A stretch of DNA of 25,701 nucleotides from a virus. The stretch is taken from IMG/VR virus record IMGVR_UViG_3300028581_002271, positions 1 to 25,701 of that record; one strand, given 5' to 3'. Below, in pieces: positions 2,850-5,124 of the stretch (its first letter is position 1; every line of letters starts with the position of its first letter). The notes beneath the pieces were generated by a model. It ran no database searches. It had not been told where the DNA came from and saw only the letters and a program-made list of their open reading frames with translations. The translations under genes and the position numbers were made by a program.

Positions 2850-2923
2850 GTCACAATAGTGTGACCCAACTGTATGAATTGCCGCATGGGATTCATACAC
2901 AACTCGCTAAAAAGGAGAAAACT
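2850..2923 (+). promoter_or_regulatory. ROSE-like RNA thermometer in the hsp20 leader (candidate)
   Basis: The leader can fold into three successive hairpins. Hairpin I pairs GTCAC 2850-2854 with GTGAC 2861-2865. Hairpin II is a 9-bp stem, TGTATGAAT 2871-2879 with ATTCATACA 2891-2899. Hairpin III pairs CUC(G)CU 2903-2908 with the Shine-Dalgarno AGGAG 2913-2917 around a four-A loop, with G2906 bulged. The anti-Shine-Dalgarno contains UCGCU, matching the U(U/C)GCU signature of ROSE thermometers. Those are known upstream of small heat-shock genes in proteobacteria, with the last hairpin covering the ribosome binding site. The spacing from AGGAG to ATG is six bases. Hairpin III is short, consistent with melting on mild warming. 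Folding was done by eye. Confidence 0.65.
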
Positions 2924-3370
2924 ATGAACAATAGAGCACTAACTATCTTTAATCAACTGAGACCCGTTACAGTGGGCTTTGATAACTTCTTTGATCATTT
3001 CGAAAGAATGTTTGAAGGAGATATAATGGCTCCTGCTGTGAACTATCCACCATACAATATTGTGAGAACTGGCAGAAATCAGTTCAATATTGAATTGGCA
3101 TTGGCAGGTTACAACAAGAAAGACATTGAAGTGACTGTGGAAGAAGGCCAATTGACTGTGAAATCCAAAAGAGCGGACAGCACACAATCAAAAGACGCCA
3201 ATGGTGAGATACTGCACAAAGGCATCGCCAGTAGATATTTTGAAAGATCGTTCACCATCGCTGATGATATCGAAATCAAAGGCGCTGAGCTGAAGGATGG
3301 TCTTTTGACCATATCACTGGAAAAGATAGTACCTGAGTCTAAAAAACTTAGAACCATCGAAATCCTATAA
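2924..3370 (+). CDS. hsp20: Small heat-shock protein Hsp20 (IbpA-like)
   Basis: A 148-residue ATP-independent holdase chaperone of the alpha-crystallin/Hsp20 family. The N-terminal part carries the FDNFFDHFERMF segment seen in IbpA-type proteins. The alpha-crystallin domain runs from about residue 40 (YNIVRTGRNQFNIELALAGY) through EGQLTVKSKR to the conserved GLLTISLEK near residue 130. A C-terminal I-x-I-like motif (TIEIL) closes the protein. The start at 2924 is preferred over the in-frame ATG at 2861 because AAAGGAG lies directly before it and 2861 falls within the structured leader. Hsp20 genes are common in marine T4-like phages and are thought to help virion assembly or protect host proteins. 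Own promoter, own leader and a 3' hairpin suggest a single-gene transcript. Confidence 0.93.
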   Translation: MNNRALTIFNQLRPVTVGFDNFFDHFERMFEGDIMAPAVNYPPYNIVRTGRNQFNIELALAGYNKKDIEVTVEEGQLTVKSKRADSTQSKDANGEILHKGIASRYFERSFTIADDIEIKGAELKDGLLTISLEKIVPESKKLRTIEIL

Positions 3371-4428: not shown

Positions 4429-5124
4429 ATGAGCAATATCTGGAATATCCTCATAGAATGCAAGGACGATATCATCAAAGAATTTGATTTGCGAGGTCAA
4501 GAAATTCAAGAACCCGGCATGAGCAGATTCAATCAACCTGAAAATGGTTGGATCAATAGAGTGTGGCAGACCGAACACTGTCGTCGCTGTCACATAGATG
4601 TGGTGGATGCTAGACAAAGCAAAGGTCTTTGGATGATGCATGTGTGTGTATTTCCCAATCTGCACAACAACGGTCCCATATATGGATTTGATGTCATAGC
4701 AGGAGAGCACAAGATGACAGGTGCATTCCATGACTTTTCACGCAGTTCAGGAGGAGAACAGCATCCACTGATAGAATGGTATCATCAAGCAGTGTCAGAG
4801 TTTGTGCCTAGTAAGAAAAGAAAATTGCCAGAGTGGGCATTGAATATATTTTCAGGCAGCATGATTGCTGCAGGCAATGTGCAAACTGATGAAGAAGCCA
4901 CAGCCATAGTGAATCTTGCAGTGAACAATCTACGAGTGTATTTTGACAGCATAGGACAATATGCTCACACTGCTAAGGAAGCAGACACCATTGAGGCACA
5001 GAACTATTACTGTCACAATCAGCAACAGAATCCACACACACCCAGAGTGATGAAGAGTTTGGGTCTGGCCGAAGCAGATGTGGAATTGTTCTGTACTGAT
5101 GCACTATTTCCCAAAATACGATAA
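4429..5124 (+). CDS. pcyX: Ferredoxin-dependent bilin reductase, PcyA/PcyX-like
   Basis: 231 residues, of the ferredoxin-dependent bilin reductase (FDBR) family, which reduces biliverdin to phycobilins. The core block runs MMHVCVFPN ... IYGFDVIAG ... MTGAFHDFS. Aligned by eye to Synechocystis PcyA, His71 matches the catalytic His88 and Asp88 matches Asp105 (same 17-residue spacing). PcyA Glu76, needed for 18-vinyl reduction, appears as Asp57 in CHIDVV. Retaining the His/Asp pair while losing Glu76 fits PcyX, the PcyA-related viral enzyme reported to make phycoerythrobilin from biliverdin, better than PcyA itself. The symbol is therefore provisional; PebS or another FDBR remains possible. It directly follows heme oxygenase and a small ORF in one operon. 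Confidence 0.85.
   Translation: MSNIWNILIECKDDIIKEFDLRGQEIQEPGMSRFNQPENGWINRVWQTEHCRRCHIDVVDARQSKGLWMMHVCVFPNLHNNGPIYGFDVIAGEHKMTGAFHDFSRSSGGEQHPLIEWYHQAVSEFVPSKKRKLPEWALNIFSGSMIAAGNVQTDEEATAIVNLAVNNLRVYFDSIGQYAHTAKEADTIEAQNYYCHNQQQNPHTPRVMKSLGLAEADVELFCTDALFPKIR

Follow-up and report, generated by a model that had tools for sequence, protein, structure and literature searches.

A ROSE-type element, likely an RNA thermometer, in front of hsp20 in marine T4-like phages

Can a marine phage tune the output of a small heat-shock gene to temperature through the leader of that gene's own mRNA? The question is raised by a 25.7-kb virus record (25,701 nt, IMGVR_UViG_3300028581_002271; this whole stretch of DNA is hereafter the window), in which a plus-strand gene at 2924–3370 encodes a 148-aa Hsp20/IbpA-like small heat-shock protein (Pfam HSP20, E 1.5e-17). 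The genes around its leader are typical for marine T4-like phages: 2OG-Fe(II) oxygenase, hsp20, clpS, and heme oxygenase, with clpP, DNA ligase, and UvdE further along the window. A megablast search of phage records with the window returned no match; among isolates, Pelagibacter phage Mosig has the closest Hsp20 (63%), followed by HTVC008M (53%). hsp20 is a core gene in T4-like cyanophages (PMC3037559). The reason that phages need a small heat-shock protein is unsettled, and a possible role in capsid maturation has only been proposed (PMC3037559).

A first-pass annotation, made from the sequence alone, had read the leader as a ROSE-type RNA thermometer: three hairpins behind a TTGACT-N17-TATATT promoter, the last pairing the Shine-Dalgarno (SD) AGGAG with CUC(G)CU around a bulged G, in front of a small heat-shock gene. 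The Pfam match confirms the gene, and RNAfold of 2850–2926 confirms the three hairpins (I, 2850–2865; II, 2871–2899; III, 2903–2917; all on the plus strand), with a fold energy of −20.2 kcal/mol (z −3.5; 1/200 shuffles equally stable). In hairpin III, the presumed thermosensor, the anti-SD CUC(G)CU (2903–2908) is paired with the SD (2913–2917, 6 nt upstream of the ATG at 2924) through C2903-G2917, U2904-A2916, C2905-G2915, C2907-G2914, and U2908-A2913, leaving G2906 bulged and an AAAA loop, just as had been claimed for the pairing and the bulge. Folded alone, this hairpin is weak (−2.1 kcal/mol at 37°C, z −2.6). Its UCGCU (2904–2908) is an instance of the ROSE signature U(U/C)GCU, as defined in PMC3669281. 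Hairpin II, the 5′ hairpin of the short-ROSE architecture, is built from a 9-bp stem, a UG/G internal loop, CC/GG, and a 4-nt loop (−11.6 kcal/mol, z −3.6). Both hairpins of the element share a C-G-closed 2×1 internal loop, 5′-YG/G-3′, set in YGCC/GGG in the first and YGCU/AGG in the second, and the Pseudomonas-type leader is built likewise; to our knowledge, this repetition has not been commented on before.

Hairpin I (GUCACA-AUAG-UGUGAC; −6.7 kcal/mol for 2848–2868, z −4.9) is restricted to the window's close relatives (L002–L012) and was seen in L002, L005, L007, and L008. The ROSE-type reading is supported with one correction: the conserved unit is hairpins II and III, and hairpin I is an extra 5′ hairpin of the window clade. 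The same bases form a palindrome, GTCACAATAGTGTGAC (2850–2865), which lies immediately 3′ of the −10 box and is kept in the window clade only; it may equally be a DNA operator or an RNA hairpin. The sigma70-like promoter is present on the plus strand as had been described (2815–2843: TTGACT at 2815–2820, a 17-nt spacer, TATATT at 2838–2843; 10/12 consensus matches), and similar −35/−10 sequences occur in the sister loci L005, L007, and L008. However, because 900 bp held eight such sites against 2.6 expected, the match by itself carries little weight; the transcription start is unmapped.

The leader has the anatomical features of the ROSE class as described in PMC3669281: a U(U/C)GCU is imperfectly paired with the SD in the 3′-proximal hairpin, stable hairpins (I and II) lie upstream of the sensor, and the element forms part of the 5′ leader of hsp20, a small heat-shock gene. 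The four consecutive U opposite the SD that mark a fourU element are not found in this leader, where the anti-SD is CUCGCU. By anatomy, the window leader is a ROSE-type element; a thermal response is only inferred, from the bacterial ROSE elements that have been tested. Rfam gives weaker guidance. At gathering threshold nothing was returned for the window leader, and the ROSE and ROSE_2 models, which the first-pass annotation had pointed to, do not match the window. In a relaxed scan (171 bases), the top match was ROSE_3 (RF02523) at 2873–2929 (19.9 bits, E 0.034), the alignment spanning model positions 1–69 of 69, that is, both hairpins and the start codon; this falls short of the 43-bit gathering threshold, so the leader is not filed under ROSE_3. 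Other phage leaders score higher with ROSE_3 (Melnitz 34.1, S-N03 31.5, MED4-213 29.2 bits), a Pseudomonas-type ibpA leader in the same scan reached 69.2 bits, and S-N03 also has a weak ROSE_2 match (26.2 bits). Sub-threshold matches to preQ1-II, freshwater-2, SAM_alpha, and mir-454 were dismissed because they cover mainly the SD/AUG or single arms.

Two outcomes that would have refuted the reading, an unconserved UCGCU and absent covariation, did not occur. We gathered 80 viral loci by their hsp20 protein, 78 of which had leaders long enough for judging. The leaders have in common a stem-[YG]-CC-loop-GG-[G]-stem hairpin and, directly upstream of the ATG, AACUU(U)GCUU...AAGGAGG or near variants. 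U(U/C)GCU followed by AGGAG is kept in 74/78 viral hsp20 leaders, the remaining four, all from one small group, carrying UGUCU; by comparison, the motif occurs in none of 70 other ORFs with an AGGAG SD in those loci. These counts include close relatives. The element occurs in pelagiphages, an OM43 phage, cyanophages, and two jumbo phages; the anatomy could be read in Mosig, HTVC008M, HTVC115P, and HTVC104P, in OM43 phage Melnitz-3, in P-SSM3, P-SSM4, P-RSM4, P-TIM40, metaG-MbCM1, S-PM2, S-CAM4, S-CAM7, S-CAM8, S-CREM1, S-N03, S-RIM2, Syn33, and MED4-213, as well as in marine virus AG-345-E15 and in two jumbo phages, Phosso and Deifobo (the latter with UUGCG). The usual cyanophage form is a YGCC-UUCG-GGG hairpin plus CUCGCUU...AAGGAG. 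Departures include the SD variants AGGAC (S-CAM4) and AGGAU (HTVC104P) and a first hairpin that deviates from the common form in HTVC115P and S-PM2; Vibrio phage PWH3a-P1 is without the element.

Several side observations arose from these loci. Many relatives (e.g., L036, L040, and L062) carry TATATAAATA shortly 5′ of hairpin II, about 60–90 nt before the hsp20 ATG. It resembles a T4 late promoter, with TTGACA/TTGAAA further upstream, and early and late promoters may possibly overlap here. One viral contig related to the window contains a glutamine riboswitch (L013:5990–6040, 66.7 bits). Two UNVERIFIED records, “Pseudomonas phage Y7” and “Campylobacter phage A18a,” were excluded as phage cases because their DNA looks bacterial. 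The UNVERIFIED phage records OQ572409.1 (L097) and MG065686.1 (L106) hold bacterial-type ibpA genes, probably through contamination with host DNA, and the Y7 record has a full ROSE_3 (69.2 bits).

Covariation is strong. In a plain MAFFT alignment of 46 leaders (A1), we counted 85 two-sided changes versus 33.8 in shuffled alignments and at most 45 with partners slid. For A3, which holds the gap-free arms of 75 phage and bacterial sequences, the count was 271 versus 104 shuffled and at most 113 slid, with a covariation score of 0.492 versus 0.160. Because the sequences underlying these counts are related, the cells are not independent events. The gap-free arms replaced a MAFFT alignment of phages and bacteria with loops included (A4), in which hairpin II was misaligned. 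Anchors in A3 were picked by longest stem, which brings a small pairing bias; the unfitted A1 count is the cleaner control. Hairpin II, 5′ of the sensor, covaries strongly in the relatives: two of its pairs are intact in 75/75 A3 sequences, with five pair types each. The SD side of hairpin III is nearly invariant, as expected, and its outer pairs vary two-sidedly (columns 25/37: UA 26, CG 21, AU 5).

In whole phage genomes, too, covariance models single out the hsp20 leader. We searched whole isolate genomes with a covariance model built from A1 (R1), and the hsp20 leader was the top match in Mosig, HTVC008M, Melnitz, S-PM2, Syn33, and HTVC115P (E 2e-10 to 0.012), with every other match in those six genomes at E ≥ 0.14; S-PM2 and Syn33 were outside the training set. 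R1 found no match in the P-SSM4, MED4-213, and S-N03 genomes, although their leaders show the anatomy, and those of MED4-213 and S-N03 are supported also by ROSE_3. A second model, built without the window's clade (R2), has the leader as its sole window match (2870–2926, 18.4 bits, E 0.03) and detects sister contigs at E ~2e-4. Elsewhere in the window, R1 has a weak match at 192–267 (20.6 bits). A 7-bp hairpin at 244–261 (AUAUCCU-AACA-AGGAUAU, −6.2 kcal/mol) masks the SD of a 514-aa ORF at 265 and is only partly kept in relatives.

The element is not confined to viruses. Within the order to which a marine alphaproteobacterial MAG (L088, G001) belongs, 23/32 genomes have an R1 match, and hsp20 lies directly 3′ of the match in 20/20 fetched bacterial loci. 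In a second order, with genomes of 1.0–1.5 Mb, the element occurs in 18/40, all with a phage-like Hsp20 (51–67% identity). Because a SAR11 16S probe site is present exactly in 4/7 element-bearing genomes tested, we take this second order to be Pelagibacterales. Thus, the element precedes hsp20/ibpA in SAR11 and other marine alphaproteobacteria. Its homology with these host-bacteria elements and its tight link to hsp20 are shown, as are the anatomy, conservation, and covariation described above. In the protein tree, pelagiphage Hsp20 is joined with SAR11 IbpA (support 96/95), cyanophage Hsp20 forms a separate clade (94/86), and the hsp20 of two SAR11-like genomes falls inside the pelagiphage clade (98/96). 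One of the two, G129, has bacterial genes on both sides of hsp20 in a 1.2-Mb contig. From these placements and neighbors, the element appears to travel with the gene. The G129 gene (L162, G129:C1:31500–40500; hsp20 at 4463–4909), which is 67% identical to the window's and lies among bacterial neighbors in a SAR11-like chromosome, is a possible phage-to-host transfer of gene plus thermometer. A contig in the first MAG (L163, G001:C5:38500–46675) was rejected as a host case: the bin is bacterial, but the contig is phage-like, with clpX, hsp20, and clpS in a layout similar to the window's.

Would such a leader respond to temperature? Predictions address this only weakly. For the SD of the window leader, the predicted mean unpaired fraction rises from 0.10 at 15°C to 0.17 at 37°C and 0.33 at 50°C. 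On this weak evidence, the outcome that would have spoken against the first-pass reading, an SD no less accessible at low temperature than at high, is not predicted. For a Pseudomonas-type control, the corresponding values are 0.02, 0.09, and 0.20. Across 52 leaders, SD exposure at 15°C is 0.14 versus 0.43 in shuffles, with 51/52 under their own shuffle mean. Yet 22–34% of shuffled window leaders mask the SD equally completely by a joint-accessibility measure, and single-sequence thermodynamics would therefore not make the case. Such folds are also context-dependent, as the Mosig SD is predicted open once 30 coding bases are included. A comparison of SD accessibility with other window genes added nothing, because few of those genes have a real SD. 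At 20°C, the same calculation gives the window SD hairpin −4.0 versus −12.4 kcal/mol for Pseudomonas, with group medians of −6.4 (pelagiphage-type), −5.5 (cyanophages), and −5.4 (SAR11); the nearest-neighbor parameters take no account of non-canonical pairing within the ROSE loop. The model thus predicts a modest opening between 15 and 37°C and a weak hairpin III, without any experiment.

In the tested short two-hairpin ROSE of Pseudomonas, translation is repressed at 25°C; upon heat shock, only the second hairpin melts, and the first does not open (PMC3669281). By analogy, hairpin III of the phage leader would, at low temperature, pair the SD with U(U/C)GCU across the bulged G and allow little Hsp20 per mRNA; on warming, the weak hairpin would open, the ribosome would bind, and the chaperone would be made, with hairpin II remaining closed and aiding the folding of the sensor. 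Heat-driven melting and a rise in translation rest on this analogy for the window element, with accessibility predicted by model only. The weaker phage SD hairpin suggests opening at lower temperature than in Pseudomonas, a model inference that leaves out the non-canonical pairs; a lower working range is probable and would fit a marine host. We consider it likely that hairpins II and III form a short ROSE-type RNA thermometer in this leader, hairpin I being an addition of the window clade and the thermal response being assigned by analogy.

Could the conserved structure serve something other than temperature? The most serious rival is a translational attenuator that lowers Hsp20 and answers ribosome load, ions, or chaperone feedback. 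In its favor, the predicted opening is modest over the marine temperature range, there are no temperature data, and infection by a phage may in itself cause proteotoxic stress. We nevertheless find it unlikely, as the anatomy matches proven thermosensors (PMC3669281) and the element also precedes host hsp20/ibpA. Less plausible still is that the leader is bound by a phage repressor of the RNA-binding kind, such as RegA. RegA is known to act at ribosome-binding sites of T4-like early mRNAs, and by annotation T4-like relatives encode RegA-type repressors, directly 5′ of hsp20 in several cyanophages. However, bacterial chromosomes, SAR11-like ones among them, also carry the element before hsp20, and the sequence of stem II varies while its pairing is kept, which means that structure rather than sequence is conserved. 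It is just as improbable that the leader is a passenger, which came from a host together with its gene and has lost its relevance in the phage: pelagiphage Hsp20 does group with SAR11 IbpA, but within phages stem II has changed two-sidedly many times and is still paired, and the cyanophages, a separate clade, have retained the element.

A DNA operator, with the AACTCGCTTAAATA stretch as a transcription-factor site, can be all but ruled out. ATTCAAACTCGCTTAAATA has been listed as a putative Pho box for S-PM2d130, but S-PM2d130 showed no PhoB binding in gel shift and no phosphate response (PMC10976474), and the AACTCGCTTAAATA stretch is the anti-SD arm of a hairpin whose partner arm is the SD. 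In S-PM2 (L087), this ROSE hairpin arm, upstream of hsp20 at 3007, coincides with the putative Pho box that had been published (PMC10976474), and the ROSE reading is a likely explanation of that sequence.

With the ROSE-type thermometer as our preferred reading, phages probably tune chaperone output to temperature, again by analogy with bacterial ROSE elements. A conserved thermometer before hsp20 would mean that the Hsp20 dose is meant to follow temperature, which is testable in culturable phage-host pairs. If true, the best-studied thermometer class would extend to viruses, a proteobacterial-type thermometer would be placed in phages of cyanobacteria, and sea temperature would have a concrete route to affect infection by abundant viruses. 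A bolder, joint claim is that ROSE is standard for hsp20 in marine T4-like phages (those of SAR11, OM43, Prochlorococcus, and Synechococcus), that it works at a lower temperature range than in Pseudomonas, and that gene and switch moved together between phage and host, this last part drawn from the two SAR11-like chromosomes whose Hsp20 groups inside the pelagiphage clade. Taken as a whole, we lean toward this claim, if only slightly.

The thermometer class itself is known; what seems new is a ROSE-type element in viruses, a setting that is apparently unreported and widespread. In the open-access literature searched, we found no viral ROSE element described. A thermometer is not mentioned in papers on phage small heat-shock proteins (PMC3827213, PMC5028025), Melnitz (PMC9004378), or T4-like cyanophages (PMC3037559), and hsp20 is not treated in a paper on pelagiphage transcriptomes (PMC12753301). 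A survey including SAR11 strain HIMB5 mentions one possible RNA thermometer without main-text detail (PMC6429828), and the host element may possibly be listed there already.

How, then, does the phage element compare with known systems? The first-pass suggestion that RNA-based temperature sensing would be unusual for a virus has to be toned down, as phage RNA thermometers have been described: lambda cIII, SP-beta blyA, and one further candidate (PMC10586365, PMC11182007). The first two are, like the hsp20 leader, phage mRNAs with temperature-dependent translation in the lambda and SP-beta cases and presumed here; they differ in belonging to temperate phages and other genes, not chaperones, and neither is ROSE (cIII uses alternative mRNA structures, blyA a fourU). 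The closest relative is the Pseudomonas ibpA short ROSE (ROSE_3; PMC3669281), which likewise has two hairpins, a small heat-shock gene 3′, and an unpaired AUG, with AUGCC...GGG in the first hairpin and U(U/C)GCU paired with the SD in the second; the window element differs in being phage-encoded, AT-rich, and sub-gathering, with a far weaker SD hairpin and the extra hairpin I of its clade. The longer ROSE/ROSE_2 elements (Bradyrhizobium hspA, E. coli ibpA) share several hairpins, the imperfect pairing of U(U/C)GCU with the SD, and hsp genes (PMC3669281), but they are more complex, with three to four hairpins. In the Synechocystis hsp17 thermometer (PMC4477652), a leader hairpin also controls a small heat-shock gene; that single hairpin, however, has a 1×3 internal bulge and holds the start codon in its stem, and the cyanophages examined carry the ROSE type, not the Synechocystis hsp17 type.
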